Assembly: GCF_000161795.2 (NCBI RefSeq)
Contig: NZ_CP006882.1
Span: forward strand, 310,001-374,000
DNA: 64,000 nucleotides
Reading direction: 5' to 3'
DNA from: Synechococcus sp. WH 8109
GTDB lineage: Bacteria > Cyanobacteriota > Cyanobacteriia > PCC-6307 > Cyanobiaceae
In this document: positions 11,144 through 50,009 of the stretch, piece by piece
How positions within the stretch are numbered: position 1 is the first letter of the stretch
Layout: every line of letters begins with the position of its first letter
Notes under the pieces: generated by a model
The model's input: only the letters and a program-made list of their open reading frames with translations
Told to the model about the DNA's origin: nothing
Database searches by the model: none
Translations under genes and position numbers: made by a program

Positions 11144-11635
11144 TCAGCCAACGCTCCAGACACCAGCAGCGATCTTGAACAGTTCCTGTACGTGGACGGT
11201 GTTGCAGAGGAACCAGGCGAAAACGGCACCGCCGCAACCACCGAGCCAGAACCCACTGGTGAAGTCAGCCCAACCGGTGCGGGTGAACAGGTCGGCGGGG
11301 GGGTTCTCAACCGTCACATCCGAAGGGGGGATGTTGGGTTGCTTGCCGGGCTGGTTGTAAAGCAGGAACAGCAAGCTGAGGATGTGCACAGCGCCAATGG
11401 CAGCCAACAGGCCAGCGGTTTGCTGATACTCAGTGGCACGTAGAGGACCACAGATGGTGAAGGGGCCGTAGAGCAGATAACCGAAGGCTGCACCGGTTTC
11501 CAGGCCGCGGAAGTTCGGGGAAATCCCGGGGCGGTACAGGGGCAGATTGTTGATCAGGCCTTTGATGAAATAGCCGCTGTTGACGGGTGTCGCAAGGTTG
11601 CCGACGCAGGGATCAGCAGCAGGAGTGACGGTCAT
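11144..11635 (-). CDS. psaL: Photosystem I reaction centre subunit XI
   Basis: PsaL, 163 aa, is the subunit at the centre of the PSI trimer and is needed for trimerisation. Family features are visible: [25 protein letters not shown] at the N-terminus, followed by the hydrophobic segments containing [19 protein letters not shown] and the C-terminal [16 protein letters not shown]. It is the second gene of a psaI-psaL unit, with 43 bp between the genes, and it ends at a strong terminator. Confidence 0.97.
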
Positions 11636-11678
11636 GGGTTACGAGTGCTGAGGGGTTGAAACGGTCCGCAAGTCGCGG

Positions 11679-11795
11679 TCACTCCGCAGCTGTGATCACT
11701 CGACCAACAAGGACGATGAACACTGCGGGGAAAACGATTCCGGTGATGGGCACGAAAATCGCAGGCAGCCAGGCAGCAGCGAAATCTCCAGTCAT
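11679..11795 (-). CDS. psaI: Photosystem I subunit VIII
   Basis: PsaI, 38 aa, a single-helix PSI subunit that contacts PsaL at the trimer interface. The sequence MTGDFAAAWLPAIFVPITG followed by a hydrophobic helix is typical. The start at 11795 is chosen over a longer upstream in-frame ATG (11870), because the 38-residue product matches the family and the upstream residues do not. It is co-directional with psaL, which follows after 43 bp. Confidence 0.95.
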   Translation of the reverse strand: MTGDFAAAWLPAIFVPITGIVFPAVFIVLVGRVITAAE

Positions 11796-11885
11796 GTCGA
11801 GGCCAAAAGCTTCGCAGCTACTGTAAGTAGGTCCGTTCTGACGGCCTGCTTTAGGCCCCAACGGCGACATAAAAGTTCAATCCGC

Positions 11886-12353
11886 ATGCAGAACGTTCTC
11901 CTCCCCGGTGCTGTCGTGCTGCTCACGGTGGTGCTCTGGTTGCGTAGGAAGCCGGTGAAGCCGATGCTTTCCAGCACGGATGCCAGCCGTGTCGCAGAGA
12001 TCAATCGTGCCCAGCTGGAACTGGTGATTCAGCCTGCCGCTGATGGGGAATCCGTCGATGCTTCCCTGGAGTCCTGGACGGCGCCGACCAGTCCCCTGGA
12101 GCGTCTTGCCCTGGAGCGCCGCCTCAAGGCCGATATGGAGGCTGGCCCCGAGGAGCGTTTGCGCGCCGTATGTTTGGCCGCCCGATGGGGGCACCGTTCG
12201 GCTCTGCCCCTGCTGCGTCAAGCGCTGCGGGACAGCGATACGCGTGTGGTGGAAGCAGCTGCTGCTGCGATCGCACCGTTCCGCGGCGCGCCGGCCGCTG
12301 CTCAGACTCGTCAGCCGGCCCGGCCGCCGCGCAACGTTTCGCGGATGCGATAA
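11886..12353 (+). CDS. Conserved hypothetical protein with HEAT-like helical repeat
   Basis: 155 aa. One N-terminal hydrophobic segment (LLPGAVVLLTVVLWL) may be a membrane anchor. The middle contains a HEAT-like pair of helices (RLRAVCLAARWGHRSALPLL ... DTRVVEAAAAAIAPF), and the tail is basic and low in complexity. Function is unknown. It is divergent from psaI with 90 bp between starts, and its 3' end overlaps the convergent glycosyltransferase gene by 43 bp. Confidence 0.65.
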   Translation: MQNVLLPGAVVLLTVVLWLRRKPVKPMLSSTDASRVAEINRAQLELVIQPAADGESVDASLESWTAPTSPLERLALERRLKADMEAGPEERLRAVCLAARWGHRSALPLLRQALRDSDTRVVEAAAAAIAPFRGAPAAAQTRQPARPPRNVSRMR

Positions 12354-13273
12354 ATCGGTCGGTCCTGGCTTTCGTGGTACGTGCGGATCAGCAGTTCGCC
12401 TAGAAGCCCGAAGCAGAAAAGTTGAATGCCTGCTAGGCCAAGCACCACCGCCAGGGTGAGCAGTGGGCGATTTGCAATGTCGCCTCCCATCACCTTGATC
12501 AATAAGAGATAGGTGCTGGTGATCAGGCTGGCGGCGATGGCCAGCAGTCCACCGAAGCCGAACACGTACATCGGCCGGGTCAGAAAACGCTTCATGAACC
12601 AGACGGTGAGCAGATCCATCAGCACACGGAAGGTACGATCGATCCCGTACTTGCTGCTGCCGAACTGACGCGCCCGGTGGTTCACCTTTACTTCGGTGAT
12701 CCGTGCACCCTCTATGAAGGCCAGGGCGGGAAGAAAGCGATGCAGCTCTCCATAGAGCCGCATGTCTGAGAGCACCTCGCGTCGATAGGCCTTCAGGGAG
12801 CAGCCGTAGTCATGCAGCCGCACCCCAGTCACCCGGCCGATCAAGCGGTTGGCGATCCGGGAAGGAAGTTTGCGCTGGAGAGCGGCGTCCTGGCGCTGAT
12901 GGCGCCAGCCACTGACGAGGTCATACCCCTCTCGCAGTTTGGCCAGCAGCATGGGGATGTCGGCCGGATCGTTCTGAAGATCTCCATCGAGGCTGACGAT
13001 CACCTCTGCGCCAGCCACATCAAACCCAGCCGCCATGGCTGCGGTTTGGCCATAGTTCTTCCGCAGCAGCACAGCCACCACCTCGGGAACTTCTGCGCTG
13101 AGCTGGGCCAGCACTTTCGCGGTGCGGTCGCTGGATCCGTCGTCGACCAGGACCAGCTCAAACGTCTCATCGGTTGGACGCAGTGCTGAGAGGAGCTGCT
13201 CAACCAGGTGGGGCAGGCTTTCCTCTTCGTTGTACAGCGGCACCACCACCGAGAGATTCAGGGGTGCACTCAT
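12311..13273 (-). CDS. Family 2 glycosyltransferase with C-terminal membrane helices (DPM1/GtrB-like)
   Basis: 320 aa. The GT2 catalytic domain fills about residues 1-235, with SVVVPLYNEEESLP at the nucleotide-binding start, the VDDGSSDRT loop and the metal-binding DGDLQNDP. Two hydrophobic helices follow at about 236-305. This layout is that of polyprenyl-phosphate glycosyltransferases (GtrB/ArnC/DPMS type), which load a sugar onto undecaprenyl phosphate at the cytoplasmic face of the membrane. The substrate cannot be told from sequence. The nearby NlpC/P60, serine hydrolase and alanine racemase genes suggest an envelope role. Its 3' end overlaps the convergent HEAT-like gene. Confidence 0.9.
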   Translation of the reverse strand: MSAPLNLSVVVPLYNEEESLPHLVEQLLSALRPTDETFELVLVDDGSSDRTAKVLAQLSAEVPEVVAVLLRKNYGQTAAMAAGFDVAGAEVIVSLDGDLQNDPADIPMLLAKLREGYDLVSGWRHQRQDAALQRKLPSRIANRLIGRVTGVRLHDYGCSLKAYRREVLSDMRLYGELHRFLPALAFIEGARITEVKVNHRARQFGSSKYGIDRTFRVLMDLLTVWFMKRFLTRPMYVFGFGGLLAIAASLITSTYLLLIKVMGGDIANRPLLTLAVVLGLAGIQLFCFGLLGELLIRTYHESQDRPIYRIRETLRGGRAG

Positions 13274-13333
13274 GCCGATCGCGCTGCGAGTCGCTCAACT
13301 TAAGCAGGGGGCCGGTTAATCCGGCTGACTGCG

Positions 13334-14062
13334 TCAGGAGAGATGCGATCCGTCATGGCAACGCACCACACGGCCTGCGCCGCGGAATTCAGCCCTGTAG
13401 TGGCACGCCACCGGGTGCTGATCGCTGCTGTGAAGGCTGTCGATGCCGATCCCATTGCGCCCATGGTCCTTGCCTGAGCTATGGCGGTAGCGGCCATCGC
13501 CGAGATGGAGCCCCACATGGGTGCAACGCCGGCGTGTGCCAAAGAACAGCAGATCTCCCGGGCGCAGCAGGCTGGGATCGTCGGGGAGAGCGGCCACAGG
13601 TTGGCAGAATCGCTCCTGCTGGTAGGCATCTCGCGGAATCCAAATGCCCTGGCTAGCGAAGGCCATCTGCATCAGACCGGAACAATCCATGTCCGGTTCT
13701 GTGGTGCCTCCCCAGAGGTAGACATTGCGACGTTTGTGGGCAGTTTCGCTCCAGGCGAGAACGCCGGGCAGTCGTCGTTCAATCTCCGAGGAGCTCAGCG
13801 GCGACGGTCGCCAGGCTGCGCATCGCTCAGCTCGCCCCAGAACCGCCTCGAGTTCGAGCCAGCAGCGGTAGCCATCCTCCAGCAGCTGAACAGCGATCCT
13901 CTTGCGCCGCCTCTCCAGAATGCGAAAGCGGCGTCCATGACAGGCCTGGGTGGTCAGATTCGCGCCGGCAGATCGCGAATAACCATTCACGTCAGCGCAC
14001 AGCTGCCAACAGGAGCCCATCTGAATCAGGTCCGGGGCCAGCAGGGTGCCTAACGTCGCCAT
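13334..14062 (-). CDS. NlpC/P60-family peptidoglycan endopeptidase
   Basis: 242 aa. The C-terminal NlpC/P60 domain has the catalytic Cys127 in MDCSGLMQ, His182 in THVGLHLG and a third polar residue at His194. The N-terminal ~80 residues look like an SH3b-type domain. This matches the cyanobacterial gamma-D-glutamyl-L-diamino-acid endopeptidases (AvPCP/NpPCP), which cut stem peptides of peptidoglycan. No clear signal peptide is present, so it may act on recycled muropeptides in the cytoplasm. It is divergent from the beta-lactamase-like gene, with 17 bp between start codons. Confidence 0.88.
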   Translation of the reverse strand: MATLGTLLAPDLIQMGSCWQLCADVNGYSRSAGANLTTQACHGRRFRILERRRKRIAVQLLEDGYRCWLELEAVLGRAERCAAWRPSPLSSSEIERRLPGVLAWSETAHKRRNVYLWGGTTEPDMDCSGLMQMAFASQGIWIPRDAYQQERFCQPVAALPDDPSLLRPGDLLFFGTRRRCTHVGLHLGDGRYRHSSGKDHGRNGIGIDSLHSSDQHPVACHYRAEFRGAGRVVRCHDGSHLS

Positions 14063-44909: not shown

Positions 44910-45371
44910 ATGCCATCCGTGCTGCAAATTGATCACCGATGCCACACGGATCTGCGCCGCATTTTATTGGCGCCCCATCCTGAAGAAGGCTGTGCCTTGC
45001 TGCTGGGACAACGGACGAATTCAGGGTGTTTGAGGGTGACCACGACCTGGCCCTGTTGCAACGTCTGGGGACGGGGGGCATCAGGCCATCGGCCCGTTCA
45101 CGACCGTTGCAGACGGTTTCTGGTGGATCCGAGGGAGCAGTTGGCCGCCCAGAGATGGGCCCGGGATCGCTATCAACATTGTCTTGGCGTAGCTCACTCC
45201 CATCCGGCATCCGAGCCCTCGCCCTCGCCCCATGATCGGCAGTGGGGGGAGGCGGAGAGTGTGATGCTGATTCTTTCTGCGTCGCTTGGCCTGCGGGCCT
45301 GGTGGCTGCATGGTGACCGCAGCGTGGATGAAATCCCGATTCAGCTCTGGGACACTCACAACGATGCATGA
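44910..45371 (+). CDS. JAMM/MPN-domain metalloprotease
   Basis: 153 aa. The zinc-protease JAMM signature is complete: Glu25/26 in PEEGCALLLG, then His96-x-His98 and Ser106-x-x-Asp109 in HSHPASEPSPSPHD. Bacterial members cleave C-terminal extensions from ubiquitin-like sulfur carrier proteins (Mec+/QbsD type) or act as deubiquitinase-like isopeptidases. The stop overlaps the ATG of the ThiF-rhodanese gene by 8 bp, which strongly suggests joint function in sulfur-carrier activation. Confidence 0.88.
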   Translation: MPSVLQIDHRCHTDLRRILLAPHPEEGCALLLGQRTNSGCLRVTTTWPCCNVWGRGASGHRPVHDRCRRFLVDPREQLAAQRWARDRYQHCLGVAHSHPASEPSPSPHDRQWGEAESVMLILSASLGLRAWWLHGDRSVDEIPIQLWDTHNDA

Positions 45372-46500
45372 CCAACCGATGCTGAGTGCTGATGAGCGGG
45401 GGCGTTACGCCCGCCATCTGATTCTTCCTGAGGTTGGTCCGGCCGGTCAGCTCCGGTTGAGATCTGCTTCTGTGCTGTGTGTTGGCAGTGGAGGGCTGGG
45501 ATCTCCCCTGCTGCTGTACCTGGCCGCGGCAGGCGTGGGCCGCATTGGAATCGTGGATGGAGATGTGGTGGAGCTCTCCAATCTCCAGCGCCAGGTGATC
45601 CACAGCTCCAGCGGGGTTGGCGGCTCCAAGGCCCGCTCAGCCGCAGCACGGATCCACGACCTCAACCCTCACTGCCAGGTGGAGGTGCATGAACACATGC
45701 TTGATGTGGGCAATGCCCTGGACCTCATCGCTCACTACGACCTGGTCTGTGACGGCACCGATAACTTCCCCAGCCGGTATCTGATCAACGACGCCTGTGT
45801 GTTGCTTGGCAAGCCCCTCGTCTATGGCTCCGTGCAGCGCTTCGACGGCCAGGTGAGCGTGTTCAACCGCACGACGACGAGCCCCAATTACCGAGATCTG
45901 CTGCCGGAACCACCTTCGCCGGACGCTGTTCCGTCCTGCTCGGAGGCTGGGGTAATGGGTGTGATGCCGGGACTGATCGGTCTGCTTCAGGCCACCGAAG
46001 CGATCAAACTGATTACAGGCATTGGTGAGTGCCTGGACGGTCGGCTGTTGGTGGTTGATGCCCTGGCGATGCGATTTCGCGAACTCACCCTCCGCGTTGA
46101 TCCCGACCGACCGAAGGTCGAGAGACTGATTGACTACCGCCAGTACTGCCGTCCGGCGTTATCGGAGATGGAATCCATCACTGTCATGGAGCTGAAGGCC
46201 CTGCTCGACTCCGCTCCAGACGAGATTGCGCTGGTTGATGTGCGCAATCCTGCTGAAGCAGAGGTGGCTTCGATTGAAGGAAGCCACTTGGTTCCGTTGG
46301 CCTCGCTGGAGAGTGGAGAGGCGATCGATCGAGTTCGTGCAATGGCCGAGGGACGGCGCCTTTTGGTGCACTGCAAGCTCGGGGGGCGCTCTGCCAGGGC
46401 CGTTGAGCTGTTGGCTCAGCACGGCATCGCGGCAACGAATATGACCGGTGGAATTGATGCCTGGTCTCAGCAGGTGGATCCTGCAATCCCTCGCTACTAA
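45364..46500 (+). CDS. moeB: ThiF/MoeB-family E1-like adenylyltransferase fused to rhodanese
   Basis: 378 aa. The E1-like domain (about 1-255) has the nucleotide motif VGSGGLGSPLLLYLAAAGVG, the RQVIH segment, the D130-G-T-D site, and the conserved Cys192 in PSCSEAGVMG. The rhodanese domain (about 270-378) has the active-site Cys337 in LLVHCKLGGRS. Such fusions (MoeZ/MOCS3 type) adenylate and thiolate the C-terminus of ubiquitin-like sulfur carriers such as MoaD and ThiS. The symbol moeB follows common cyanobacterial usage; moeZ would fit too. It overlaps the JAMM gene, and it ends 8 bp before the cobO-derived scar. Confidence 0.93.
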   Translation: MHDQPMLSADERGRYARHLILPEVGPAGQLRLRSASVLCVGSGGLGSPLLLYLAAAGVGRIGIVDGDVVELSNLQRQVIHSSSGVGGSKARSAAARIHDLNPHCQVEVHEHMLDVGNALDLIAHYDLVCDGTDNFPSRYLINDACVLLGKPLVYGSVQRFDGQVSVFNRTTTSPNYRDLLPEPPSPDAVPSCSEAGVMGVMPGLIGLLQATEAIKLITGIGECLDGRLLVVDALAMRFRELTLRVDPDRPKVERLIDYRQYCRPALSEMESITVMELKALLDSAPDEIALVDVRNPAEAEVASIEGSHLVPLASLESGEAIDRVRAMAEGRRLLVHCKLGGRSARAVELLAQHGIAATNMTGGIDAWSQQVDPAIPRY

Positions 46501-46508
46501 ACCCAGGG

Positions 46509-46553
46509 TTAGTAATCCACCCCTCGCTTCAGGTCGATGCCCTGTTCGGCGTA
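46509..46553 (-). repeat. Remnant copy of the cobO 3' end
   Basis: Minus-strand 15 codons read YAEQGIDLKRGVDY plus stop. The intact cobo end at 48861-48905 reads YAEQGVDLKRGVDY plus stop. Nucleotide identity is 34/45, and nearly all changes are at third codon positions. Only the first 11 nt from the upstream side (TACGCCGAACA) are identical. Sequence upstream of the remnant is not cobO-like. Confidence 0.85.
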
Positions 46554-46603
46554 AGCAGTAGAGCTAAGCCACGACAGCCTTTTCAGGCTAATCGTGACAC
46601 TGA

Positions 46604-46624
46604 ATACAAACTCAGTACAAACTC
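46604..46624. repeat. ATACAAACT-type repeat, left copy
   Basis: ATACAAACTCAGTACAAACT resembles ATACAAACTTCGTGCAAACC at 48830-48849, near the other end of the island. The first nine bases are identical and most of the remainder match. Confidence 0.45.
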
Positions 46625-46628
46625 TGAC

Positions 46629-46760
46629 TTGTCTTCTGGCAGTTCGTCAGGAGCTTGGTCGCGCCGAAAATCGCTGAGAAGGCCAAGGCCCTGAACGGCA
46701 AAGGCGTGGTCTTCTCCTAAATGTGCGAGCCGCAGAAGTTCTATTTCCGCAACTATTGAG
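46629..46760 (+). pseudogene. Short decayed coding relic
   Basis: A frame without start codon reads FWQFVRSLVAPKIAEKAKAL-NGKGVVFS, then an in-frame TAA (46719-46721), then MCEPQKFYFRNY and TGA. The residue composition looks like real protein (amphipathic, K/A-rich, then aromatic-rich), and GC content is higher than in the LRR gene beside it. I do not recognise the family, and chance cannot be excluded. Confidence 0.3.
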
Positions 46761-46899
46761 GGAGGAGAGTGATGCAGTTGTTGCCTATAGATTAGAGCGG
46801 AACAGAATGAGCTTTCCACATCTTTATTGATTTAAATTAGATGACAGTTAGGATCTTGCGTGATCTTTGGCAATCATCTCAGCATTGATCAAAATAATG

Positions 46900-48480
46900 T
46901 CACGTCATTGGATTGCCATACCAAGCAATACCTTCATTTAGCCAATTTGTATCCTGATCCAAAAGGCTTTGTTCGTAAGTACTGGTTGAGTAAAGATGGC
47001 TACCAGTTCCTTGATTGAGATATCGAACAACAGCAACCGCATTGTCAATGTATTCAATTGCATTATAAGCGGTAAAAGCTTTTCCCTCATATTGCCAGCC
47101 TGCATCAACTAGTCCCTGGTTGTTGATAATAAGATCTCTTTCGCTCGAAAGAGCCGTATAAAAGTGTCGATTTTCTGAAGATACATAAAAACGAAAGATA
47201 TCAGCTGTTGCTACCCCAGGCTCGTAGTAGACAGTACCTTCGTTCTTCCATCCGCTGCTCGTCAATATATCTATTTCATTCTGATTAGACGAAAACAAAT
47301 GCTTGCCTTCAGAAGTGTTATGAAGCCTACTAACAGGACTAACAGTTCTTTTGTTTATTTGAGCACCAGAGGTAAGCCAAGAGAGATCAAATGTTGACTG
47401 AGCTGGAATACTAATGGAATGCAAGTTATCATTATACCTAAACGCATCGTCTCCAATTGATGTCACGCTGTCAGGAATATCTATTGTGATTAGATTAGTA
47501 TCATAAAATGGACCATATCCAATAGAGGTAACGGTATTGGATATATTTACGCTAATCAATGGATTGCCAGAAAAAGCATATTGGGGAATTGATGTGATGC
47601 CATGAGGAATTTTTACACTGAAAAGATTATTATTGCTGAACGCAAATCTTCCAATTGATGTTACGCTATTTGGAATGTCTACGGTGTACAAATCATTACT
47701 TTCAAAGGCGGACTCGCCTATCATTGTAATGCTTTCGGGAATACTAACGCTTACTAAGCCCTTGCCAGAAAATGCTTTATCAGCTATTGAAGTATAAATC
47801 TCAGGTATTACTACATTTAATCCCAGCTCATCTATTAACGACTGGGCTAACTCCTTGGTTAGCACCTTTGGCGCTATATCAAGAGACGTGACGACAGTGG
47901 GAGGGATTCGGTCAACAAAAGTTGAAGATGATGTGGATGTTCTATGAATAATTTGAGCATTATATGGAAGCGCTTGAAGATTAAATAATGGATTCTGAGG
48001 AACATTAATAGTTTGTGCTTCGGTTACATAGCTCCAAGCAACACTGGGGAATACATGATTAGGCAATGAAGTCAAGCTATCCGGAAGACTTATATTCTTT
48101 ACATTGTTTTCATAGAAAGCATACATATCAATGAAGACAACTGAATTTGGAATGTTGATTTCTCGCAGAGAATTTGAATAAAAAGCGTTTGTGCCAATAC
48201 TAATCAAGCCCTCAGCAAACTCTACAGATGTAAGAACGTTTGCATAAAAAGCAGACCCATCAATATGCTTTACGCTACTCGGTATTGACACGCTTACAAG
48301 CTGATTTGCATAAAATGCATTACGACCTATGACTGTTATACTTTCGGGGATAACAACACTTTTGATGCCTTTTCCGCTGAATGCATTTTTACCAATTACA
48401 GCATAAGTATTAGGAATCACGATATCCAGCCCTTGCTCATCGATCAGCGCTTGAGCCAGAGATTGCGTAAGGACTGTCAA
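46900..48480 (-). CDS. BspA-type leucine-rich-repeat protein with DUF5648-like C-terminus
   Basis: 526 aa, strongly AT-rich compared with its neighbours. Two blocks of LRR_5-type repeats (units like ITVIGRNAFYANQLVSVSIP) occupy about residues 1-155 and 200-375. Each block begins with a related unit (LAQALIDEQGLDIVIP / LAQSLIDELGLNVVIP), showing internal duplication. The last ~140 residues hold three units of a DUF5648-like module (RFYVSSENRHFYTALSSERD; RYLNQGTGSHLYSTSTYEQ; RLHNTSEGKHLFSSNQNE), a domain often found in secreted proteins. No signal peptide is seen. The start is TTG at 48480, with an in-frame TGA 9 nt upstream. Probably a surface or secreted adhesion-type protein acquired by transfer. 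Confidence 0.8.
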   Translation of the reverse strand: MTVLTQSLAQALIDEQGLDIVIPNTYAVIGKNAFSGKGIKSVVIPESITVIGRNAFYANQLVSVSIPSSVKHIDGSAFYANVLTSVEFAEGLISIGTNAFYSNSLREINIPNSVVFIDMYAFYENNVKNISLPDSLTSLPNHVFPSVAWSYVTEAQTINVPQNPLFNLQALPYNAQIIHRTSTSSSTFVDRIPPTVVTSLDIAPKVLTKELAQSLIDELGLNVVIPEIYTSIADKAFSGKGLVSVSIPESITMIGESAFESNDLYTVDIPNSVTSIGRFAFSNNNLFSVKIPHGITSIPQYAFSGNPLISVNISNTVTSIGYGPFYDTNLITIDIPDSVTSIGDDAFRYNDNLHSISIPAQSTFDLSWLTSGAQINKRTVSPVSRLHNTSEGKHLFSSNQNEIDILTSSGWKNEGTVYYEPGVATADIFRFYVSSENRHFYTALSSERDLIINNQGLVDAGWQYEGKAFTAYNAIEYIDNAVAVVRYLNQGTGSHLYSTSTYEQSLLDQDTNWLNEGIAWYGNPMT

Positions 48481-48860
48481 AAGAAAAATTCACTCTAATC
48501 AATTCTACTTGCCAATAAGATTCAACAGAAAAATTCAATGATTGGTTAGCATTCTACTGCATATGCCTGTGTTGATTTGAGCATAAATTAAATGCACTTT
48601 GTTCAATGCTGATAATTAACGGCGTAGCAAAAGTGCTTTGCATGGCTTGGTTCAATCCGAGCGAGTTCGTGCATGCAAACTTCTCCTCAGATTGATTGGT
48701 GTGACTGTGGTGTGGTGACTATCGCGGATAGGTGGTGACCCAGGTTCTCCATAGGTCGCGGCTTTATGCAATGCCATCACGCGCCTGTCACGTGCGATCT
48801 GTCTTTGGATTGTGTTGAGACTTATCGGTATACAAACTTCGTGCAAACCTTGTCTATAAC
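48481..48860. other. 380-bp region between LRR gene and cobO
   Basis: No supported gene. The part next to the LRR gene (48481-48650) is AT-rich and may hold its promoter. The part from about 48650 has GC content closer to the chromosome, and contains the right copy of the ATACAAACT repeat. Confidence 0.55.
48830..48849. repeat. ATACAAACT-type repeat, right copy
   Basis: ATACAAACTTCGTGCAAACC lies 11 bp from the cobO stop codon and resembles 46604-46624. The pair lies just inside the two cobO end copies. Confidence 0.45.
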
Positions 48861-48905
48861 TCAATAGTCCACGCCACGCTTGAGATCCACTCCTTGTTCG
48901 GCGTA
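48861..48905 (-). repeat. cobO 3' end, intact copy of the flanking repeat
   Basis: The final 15 codons of cobO (YAEQGVDLKRGVDY and TGA), matched by the diverged copy at 46509-46553. TGTTCGGCGTA (48895-48905) is identical in both and is the likely crossover core. Confidence 0.8.
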
Positions 48906-50009
48906 GTGCTTGTGGCACACCATTTCGGAATGGATGCTTGCCAAATCGAAGTAAGCGGGTTGGTTTTTGCAGCGCCCCGTGATGATCACCTCGGTTTCCG
49001 CCGGTTTGCGCAGCAGGGTTTGCAGGATCGGTTCGACGGGCAGCAGCTCCAAGTCGACTGTGGGGTTCAACTCATCGAGGATCACGGTTTTGTAGAGGCC
49101 GCTTGAGATGGCTGCCCGTGCGATCTCCCAGGCCCGCTCGGCTTCCACGTAATCAATCGGCTCCTGCTGGCCCCGCCAGACGATGGCATCGCGGCCGGAG
49201 CGGAGGTGGTCCACCAAATGGGGATAGCTCTCGCGTAGGGCGGCGATGGCTGCATCTTCGGTGTAACCGCTGCCGCCTTTGAGCCACTGCAGGATCAAGA
49301 CCCGATGGCTCTTGTCCTGGCTGATGCCCCGCCCGATGGCCTGCAGCGCTTTGCCCAGCGCACTGGTTGATTTGCCTTTGCCTTCACCGGTGTAGATCTC
49401 AATACCGCTACTCACATTGAGAGGCACCACCCGGTTGTCGTTCATGCCCGGACGGCGATGGGCCCGCATCTCGGAGTGGAGGTCGGCCTCACGCACCAAG
49501 GGGGCCGGTGCGGCGCGACCGGTGACGATGATCTCCATCCCCTCCGGCCGGTTGCTGAGGGTGCGCACCACGTCCTCTAGGTCCAGCAGGCCGAGATCGA
49601 GCACAGGATTCAGCTCGTCCAGAACCACCACCGAGTAGAGGGCACTGGCGATTGCGCCCTTGGCAATCACCCAGCCCCGCTGGGCTTCATCCCGGTCGAA
49701 TCGCGTGGCTTCGTCGGCAGTGAAGTGATCGGCCCGTCCGGTGCGCAGGTGGTCGATCAGATGGGGGAAACCCTGCTGCAAGGCCTCGATGGCCGCATCC
49801 TCGTCGTAGGCCCGGCCTGGGCCTTTGAGAAAGCGCAACAGCAGCACTCGGGTCTGTCGTTGCTCGCAGATGCCGAGGCCGATGGTGCGCAGCACTACAC
49901 CAAGGGCTGCCTGGCTTTTGCCCTTGCCCTCGCCGTCATAGATGTGCAGCTGTCCGTGGCTGCGCTCGCGGCTGTCCGCTGCGGTGACAATGCCGATGCT
50001 TCGAGGCAT
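48861..50009 (-). CDS. cobO: Cob(I)alamin adenosyltransferase, tandem two-domain form
   Basis: 382 aa, about twice the length of E. coli BtuR/CobA (~196 aa). Two homologous domains (about 15-190 and 205-382) each carry a P-loop (YDGEGKGKSQAALG and YTGEGKGKSTSALG), a VVLDELNPVLDL / VILDELNPTVDL segment and an IIVTGR / VIITGR strand. The enzyme transfers the adenosyl group of ATP to cobalamin or corrinoids in vitamin B12 synthesis. Both domains look competent. The last 15 codons are duplicated at 46509-46553 across the LRR island. It is divergent from larE. Confidence 0.93.
   Translation of the reverse strand: MPRSIGIVTAADSRERSHGQLHIYDGEGKGKSQAALGVVLRTIGLGICEQRQTRVLLLRFLKGPGRAYDEDAAIEALQQGFPHLIDHLRTGRADHFTADEATRFDRDEAQRGWVIAKGAIASALYSVVVLDELNPVLDLGLLDLEDVVRTLSNRPEGMEIIVTGRAAPAPLVREADLHSEMRAHRRPGMNDNRVVPLNVSSGIEIYTGEGKGKSTSALGKALQAIGRGISQDKSHRVLILQWLKGGSGYTEDAAIAALRESYPHLVDHLRSGRDAIVWRGQQEPIDYVEAERAWEIARAAISSGLYKTVILDELNPTVDLELLPVEPILQTLLRKPAETEVIITGRCKNQPAYFDLASIHSEMVCHKHYAEQGVDLKRGVDY

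Follow-up and report, generated by a model that had tools for sequence, protein, structure and literature searches.

A probable decayed integrative element at the 3' end of cobO in Synechococcus sp. WH 8109

Prophages and islands of E. coli, among them e14 and phi21, integrate into the housekeeping gene icd. At icd the integrase enters an internal site, and replacement by sequence from the element's attachment site (attP) keeps the gene functional (PMC10111431). Streptococcal integrative and conjugative elements (ICEs) lie at the 3' ends of rpsI, rplL, rpmG, guaA and lysS (PMC4701971). In Streptococcus agalactiae, SagCI is found at the 3' end of rpsD (PMC4129442) and PICI1 and PICI2 in rpsD (PMC7487436). 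Here we analyzed a stretch of 64,000 nucleotides of Synechococcus sp. WH 8109 (positions 310,001 to 374,000 of contig NZ_CP006882.1, hereafter the window), which is part of a 2.11-Mb single-contig genome (G000; G and L numbers denote genomes and loci). It contains an island of 2360 bp between moeB and the corrinoid adenosyltransferase gene cobO. We estimate a probability of about 0.94 that this island is a decayed integrative element, inserted by a lambda-type tyrosine integrase at the 3' end of cobO, which it restored.

Gene islands count among the chief sources of niche differentiation in marine Synechococcus, and the known integration sites in this group are mostly tRNA genes. Prochlorococcus tycheposons, as reportedly described by Hackl and colleagues in 2023, use tRNA genes. 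Tycheposons integrate into the genomes of marine picocyanobacteria, encode tyrosine recombinases and differ in their cargo (PMC10187409). The same source describes a picocyanobacterial integrase family at tRNA-Phe and tRNA-Cys, often near a small serine recombinase. For picocyanobacteria there is also a report of phage P-SS2 carrying a cobO gene, together with a putative attachment site that lies in the region of a tRNA-Met gene (PMC2784084).

The two cobO ends and the empty site

A previous sequence-only reading of the window claimed that the last 15 codons of cobO occur twice in the same orientation, intact at 48861-48905 and as an orphan at 46509-46553, starting 8 bp past the moeB stop codon (46500). 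We confirmed this arrangement, together with the identity of the two ends at 34 of 45 bases and 13 of 14 residues and the 11-bp stretch common to both (TGTTCGGCGTA, at 46543-46553 and 48895-48905). The intact end encodes YAEQGVDLKRGVDY and the orphan YAEQGIDLKRGVDY, each followed by a stop codon. Read in cobO sense, what lies to the left of the 46543-46553 core belongs to the element. The DNA between the ends was AT-rich, as claimed (G+C content 0.37-0.46 inside the island and roughly 0.57-0.66 outside), and carried the leucine-rich-repeat (LRR) gene that had been noticed there.

Among named records, those whose cobO is close to that of the window come from marine Synechococcus. In a genus sample of 34 genomes, moeB and cobO were adjacent or near in 30, while G011, G012, G013 and G015 were without moeB plus a nearby cobO. 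We observed an empty site in 21 of the 30 genomes, with the stop codons of moeB and cobO 1-19 bp apart, and an occupied site in nine, the window included. The ends were compared with those of seven close empty-site relatives (L008, L009, L010, L011, L013, L014 and L016; the close L017 and L018 were left out), using counts of differences in place of a cobO tree, as 45 bases are too few for one. The gap between moeB and cobO in these relatives was 8-15 bp. As the sequence-only reading had expected of island-free strains, their cobO ends were of the orphan type: the orphan differed from them at 1-2 of 45 bases in six cases and at 4 in the seventh. The intact end of the window differed from the same ends at 8-11 of 45 bases, and the body of its cobO at 45-102 of 1104 (for L008: orphan 1/45, intact end 10/45, body 45/1104). 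For four of the seven relatives there was no 45-base window of the body as divergent as the tail; for L009, L010 and L014 there were 8, 12 and 34 such overlapping windows, respectively. Because the orphan is nearly identical to the ends of empty-site relatives and the intact tail is divergent relative to its gene body, the comparison identifies the orphan as the host's own cobO end and the intact end as foreign, having arrived with the island. Judged by the 34 identical bases out of 45, the two ends did not arise by recent duplication of a single allele, and this part of the earlier reading was upheld.

A divergent second cobO, or a cobO-moeB stretch, might instead have been gained by homologous recombination next to the resident gene and mostly deleted, with the orphan end as its remainder and the AT-rich DNA having arrived separately. 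This would also yield a diverged end in the same orientation, and islands with neither paired repeats nor an orphan do occur at the same place (in G009, G014 and G027, see below). We consider it very improbable, since the resident end is the orphan and the foreign part is the final 15 codons of the intact gene, and since the position of the break agrees to within one base among three genomes. It would also leave unexplained the integrase remnant by the orphan and the paired repeats at constant distance, both described below. Insertion by a serine recombinase or a transposon, with the duplicated end as an incidental target duplication, would agree with a small, AT-rich island. Target duplications are identical at birth, whereas here 11 of 45 bases differ and the orphan keeps the sequence of the relatives. 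The sole recombinase trace that we saw is that of a tyrosine integrase. We regard this explanation as extremely improbable.

The integrase and the presumed attachment sites

Besides the window, we observed orphan cobO ends at the same site in G031 (L042) and G032 (L046). In the G032 island (about 5.7 kb), a frame of 475 aa begins about 60 bp inward from the orphan cobO end. This frame was identified as a tyrosine integrase (phrog_1 5.4e-17, phrog_216 9.3e-17); its match to Pfam Phage_integrase (1e-4) was under the curated cut-off. Thus G032 provides what the sequence-only reading had suggested looking for, another element with an integrase, here intact, and its own orphan at the same place. 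The statement that the island of the window has no integrase has to be corrected: a frame-broken 5' remnant of the tyrosine recombinase gene was found at 46616-46750 on the plus strand, and it was the sole match to the G032 integrase in the whole genome. The two islands are alike at both ends, over 242 bp (80%), 105 bp (82%) and 80 bp (81%), of which the 242-bp and 80-bp stretches include the 45-base cobO tails.

R281, K323, H435 and Y443/Y444 were invariant in seven aligned integrase homologues, and R412 was present in six of seven (Cys in L082). Foldseek with a model of the integrase gave 19 matches at E up to 0.001, all of them tyrosine recombinases, Cre variants included (best E 7.8e-6); query TM-scores were just 0.2-0.3 with a low-confidence model, so that the support is weak. 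A profile search of PDB sequences gave none at E up to 0.01. Among the five G032 frames of at least 77 aa, Pfam recognised one integrase and one LRR protein, three were without a match, and no relaxase or secretion genes were found (smaller frames were not scanned). Capsid, terminase and tail genes were not recognised by PHROGs in four frames of the same element, where the integrase alone matched (smaller frames were not scanned). We also considered a tRNA as the real target and rejected it, because there was no whole tRNA gene in 30 integrase loci (L051-L080, up to 1.5 kb on each side, some shortened by contig ends; tRNA fragments were not searched for).

A signature that was absent from the sequence-only reading is a paired repeat, at 46604-46622 and 48830-48848, placed at fixed distances on both sides (GTTTGTACNAAGTTTGTAT, period 11). 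The gene-side repeat was found exactly 12 nt past the cobO stop codon in all six islands that have the repeat, matching 17 of 18 positions in the window, 18 in G031, 17 in G005, 14 in G006, 18 in G032 and 18 in G016. The best matches in G009, G014 and G027 were 8-9 of 18, at other offsets, and 3000 stretches of 60 bases drawn at random from the window reached no more than 12 of 18. On the moeB side, the distance from the end of the repeat to the core is exactly 50 bp in the window and in G032, two of the three islands with an orphan. Presumed arm-type repeats were present on both sides in the window and G032, and on the gene side only in four other islands. The pattern was written from the two window sites, which match it by construction; it had no further match in the 64 kb at up to 2 mismatches, and none in 100 shuffles.

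The N-terminal domain of lambda integrase binds arm sites. By analogy, the paired repeats are most likely arm sites for the N-terminal domain of this integrase, and attP would consist of the core flanked on each side by an arm about 50 bp away, the layout used by heterobivalent (lambda-like) integrases. Sequence comparison would narrow the crossover down no further than the 11-bp block shared in the window, within which G031 has one mismatch. As a separate observation, in both moeB-side attachment (att) regions the interval from the paired repeat to the core holds a short inverted repeat, AGCCTTTTCAGGCT at 46576-46589 of the window and GGCCTAGATCAGGCC at 6779-6793 of L046.

We propose that the tyrosine integrase would recombine the core of the element with its counterpart within the last 15 codons of cobO. 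Since the element core is followed by a version of these codons that the element itself supplies, with a stop codon, cobO would then be restored at the end of the element, and the original codons of the host would be left as the orphan beside moeB. In the window the integrase would later have been reduced to the 45-codon remnant. Because of this reduction the window island cannot move by itself; both of its att sites look intact and might be usable in trans. The comparisons show the empty sites, the polarity of the orphan, an intact integrase and an orphan in a related element, and the constant spacing of the repeats; catalysis, the exact bases of the crossover, arm binding, excision and the functionality of the restored cobO we infer. 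Integration at the 3' end of the gene with a replacement supplied by the element, which was the central claim of the sequence-only reading, is thus supported. The coordinates of the features are presented in Table 1.

Table 1. Features of the cobO-moeB region in the window and sizes of the inserts in other genomes.
Feature	Position	Strand	Remarks
Orphan cobO 3' end, displaced last 15 codons of the host beside moeB (probable)	46509..46553	-	1/45 vs L008, 11/45 vs own intact end
Core copy, moeB side, TACGCCGAACA in cobO sense	46543..46553	-	cobO identity begins here
Probably element-supplied last 15 cobO codons, incl. core copy 48895-48905	48861..48905	-	10/45 vs L008; body 45/1104
5' remnant of tyrosine integrase gene, 45 codons, two in-frame stops	46616..46750	+	88.9% identical to residues 2-46 of G032 integrase, E 4e-20
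Paired repeat, moeB side, GTTTGTACTGAGTTTGTAT, presumed arm site	46604..46622	-	ends 50 bp from core; same distance in G032
Paired repeat, gene side, GTTTGCACGAAGTTTGTAT, presumed arm site	48830..48848	-	starts 12 nt past cobO stop
cobO, corrinoid adenosyltransferase, 382 aa, integration target	48861..50009	-	CobA_CobO_BtuR 5.6e-87
moeB (ThiF + rhodanese)	45364..46500	+	neighbour across the site from cobO
526-aa BspA-type leucine-rich-repeat protein, C-terminal DUF5648	46900..48480	-	LRR_5 3.3e-81, DUF5648 3.6e-29
Segment upstream of cargo gene, common to G032 element	48632..48736	.	81.9% over 105 bp
cobO-moeB insert sizes			G031 822 bp, G005 1423 bp, G006 about 5.4 kb, G032 about 5.7 kb
cobO-moeB insert sizes			G016 3025 bp, G014 about 1.8 kb, G027 1136 bp, G009 about 21.4 kb

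Several results weigh against this explanation. The moeB-side repeat of G031 is unrecognisable, and its intact and orphan copies differ at one base in the presumed core. The orphan is kept in three of the six repeat-bearing islands (window, G031 and G032) and is missing from G005, G006 and G016. The islands of G009, G014 and G027 have neither repeats nor an orphan and may have another origin. An intact cobO-type integrase is known from G032 alone, and a search with it in phages, plasmids, viral contigs (IMG/VR) and the named genome collection gave no match. In the G032 integrase, as in all seven aligned homologues, the His of the HxxR motif is replaced by Tyr. Structure prediction for the integrase with AlphaFold gave a poor model, with a mean pLDDT of 59.

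Other insertions at the site and their cargo

The gap between cobO and moeB could also be a general recombination hotspot, in which the integrase element is one of several kinds of insertion; this is compatible with the integrative element described above. Three of the nine occupied sites (G009, G014 and G027) would suit it, being without repeats or orphan and having TAA or TAG as the cobO stop codon. The other six, the window included, carry the repeat at the same offset, and the three exceptions could be old elements with decayed ends. We therefore regard a general hotspot as a possible but rather unlikely description of the site. In 80 named cobO loci (77 with moeB downstream), the repeat was detected in two only, which are the G031 and G016 loci, so that no new cases were added. 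In G057, from another genus, two integrase-like fragments lie between cobO and moeB (L100 1576-1793), which hints that the site may be old or repeatedly used. No repeat stood out after cobO in G057: the best match was 10 of 18, a level reached by 259 of the 3000 random window stretches. In the G009 island (L041 382-16712), one frame of 4,244 aa has Ig and cadherin-like domains, and another, of 1,103 aa, had no NCBIfam match.

In both the window and G032 the BspA-type LRR gene lies on the cobO side and faces the integrase. A gene related to the window LRR gene, with 73% DNA identity, is present at a second locus of the genome (L037, beside argJ). We considered L037 as a sister element and rejected it. 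The similarity is confined to window 46763-48462, mostly the LRR gene, and neither an orphan cobO end nor an integrase match was found in L037, which we therefore take to be related to the cargo only. The islands of G031 and G016 have a common cargo gene (82% over 755 bp, about 90 bp of it cobO).

The G006 island (L044 2853-6421) carries phnC-, phnD- and phnE-like transporter genes, with TIGR02315 and TIGR01097 above their cut-offs; its binding protein is above the cut-off of TIGR01098 and below that of PhnD. For its dehydrogenase, the best solved relatives are phosphite dehydrogenases (5.5e-103). By sequence this cargo is a ptxABCD-like set, and such sets have been described in picocyanobacteria (PMC10119275). 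The ParA-like protein of the island is identical at 214 of 231 residues to one in an rpsD element of G029. What would tie G006 to the cobO elements is the site, a degenerate repeat and the ParA-like gene, and not an integrase or an orphan.

Integrase relatives at rpsD

We searched 400 family genomes with the integrase and found homologues at E up to 0.001 in 87. Nineteen of the stronger places other than cobO were examined (L081-L099), of which L081-L089 are the nearest. For the integrases of these nine loci, identity was about 45-55% along most of the protein and fell to 37-40% in parts of L087 and L089, and the closest identity between rpsD-type and cobO-type integrases was 53-55%. In eight of the nine, the end of rpsD (...LLVVEYYSRKV and stop) was found just upstream, and integrase similarity began 38-98 bp past that stop codon; the identity of rpsD was checked in L084 (Ribosomal_S4 5.1e-23). 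The ninth, L083 (G187; integrase 47-48% identical), was at neither rpsD nor cobO, and its target was not found.

A paired CTCAAAC-type repeat followed the rpsD stop codon in all eight loci (14-18 of 18 positions matched). In L082 and L086 a second repeat pair and an orphan rpsD end followed, at a distance of 13.7 and 4.4 kb, respectively; the stop codon of the L082 orphan differs. The distal repeat ends 41 and 42 bp before the core in these two, and the gene-side repeat starts 63 bp after the core start. A third orphan rpsD end (YYSRQV and stop), with the repeat before it, is likely present in L084, and in the other five rpsD loci no distal end was recognised. The integrase lies beside the intact gene in rpsD elements and beside the orphan in cobO elements.

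The cores at the two genes are alike in the same codon phase (AAGCACTACGCCGAACAGGG versus GAGTACTACTCCCGCAAGGT, 12 of 20 bases, in a register chosen from the orphan boundaries). A match of 12/20 to the rpsD core was reached by 10 of 3145 codon-phased windows in seven window genes, cobO included. For the more distant integrases of L098 and L094, the target is apparently the 5' end of a protein gene. The L098 integrase (33% identity) is preceded by a 57-bp repeat that recurs about 7 kb on, with 95% identity between the copies, and covers the first codons of what we take to be a glutathione-S-transferase-like gene; in L094 a 20-bp exact repeat lies over the start of an 80-aa frame. No clear second end was found in L083, L090-L093, L095-L097 and L099.

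Beside the rpsD-type integrase of L081 (G014) we noticed an 809-aa phage-type (T7-like) RNA polymerase (11577-14006, minus strand; PF00940 1.9e-51), and further on a Mrr-like helicase and a PD-(D/E)XK nuclease. Similar frames were seen by eye in L082 (G029). These two rpsD elements are possibly satellites or decayed prophages; few frames were scanned, and capsid and terminase genes were not searched for.

We lean slightly towards a wider proposal, that a family of lambda-like elements of marine picocyanobacteria, apart from the tRNA-bound tycheposons, uses the ends of essential protein genes: the 3' ends of cobO and rpsD and, distantly, the 5' end of the glutathione-S-transferase-like gene. 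A new target would be gained by chance resemblance of the core (AGTACTACTCC in rpsD, AGCACTACGCC in cobO, same codon phase), and the cargo would be ecologically relevant, as the phosphite-use genes of G006. Related integrases at rpsD and cobO with similar cores would be an example of target switching in nature. A protein-gene site that is used reproducibly, and for which an integrase, att geometry, empty sites and cargo are described (surface-type LRR proteins; the phosphite dehydrogenase and phosphonate-type transporter of G006), gives a testable route of gene gain, and the integrase might become a site-specific tool for these organisms.

In the open-licence PMC literature, which does not cover Hackl et al. 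2023, we found no report of integration at cobO, or at rpsD in cyanobacteria. The tycheposons differ from the cobO element in their target, which here is a protein gene with no whole tRNA in the integrase loci; they are set apart by description and not by sequence. The family at tRNA-Phe and tRNA-Cys, which occurs in variable islands of both Prochlorococcus and Synechococcus, has a tyrosine recombinase in common with the cobO element and differs in being tRNA-linked, again by description and not by sequence. The S. agalactiae islands use the same gene as the relatives of the cobO integrase, and SagCI the same end. They belong to another phylum, are likened by target and not by integrase sequence, and cobO is not among the targets named in the excerpts consulted.

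The streptococcal ICEs resemble the cobO element in having tyrosine integrases at the 3' ends of conserved protein genes, with the integrase gene at the end of the element by the site. They differ in conjugation, for which we recognised no module in the G032 element, in the phylum, and in the target, as cobO is a vitamin B12 gene. Like the icd elements, the cobO element brings a replacement that keeps the gene whole; its target and integrase are different, 15 codons are replaced, and no phage structural genes were recognised in the G032 element. In summary, because of the icd, streptococcal ICE and S. agalactiae rpsD cases the mechanism (icd/guaA/rpsI type) is already known and rpsD is a known target outside cyanobacteria, while cobO is a target that we did not find in print. 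The cobO elements share with this class, which restores the 3' end of its gene, the insertion at the 3' end, a foreign replacement end, an orphan, a terminal tyrosine integrase (intact in G032, a remnant in the window) and an empty site in close relatives.

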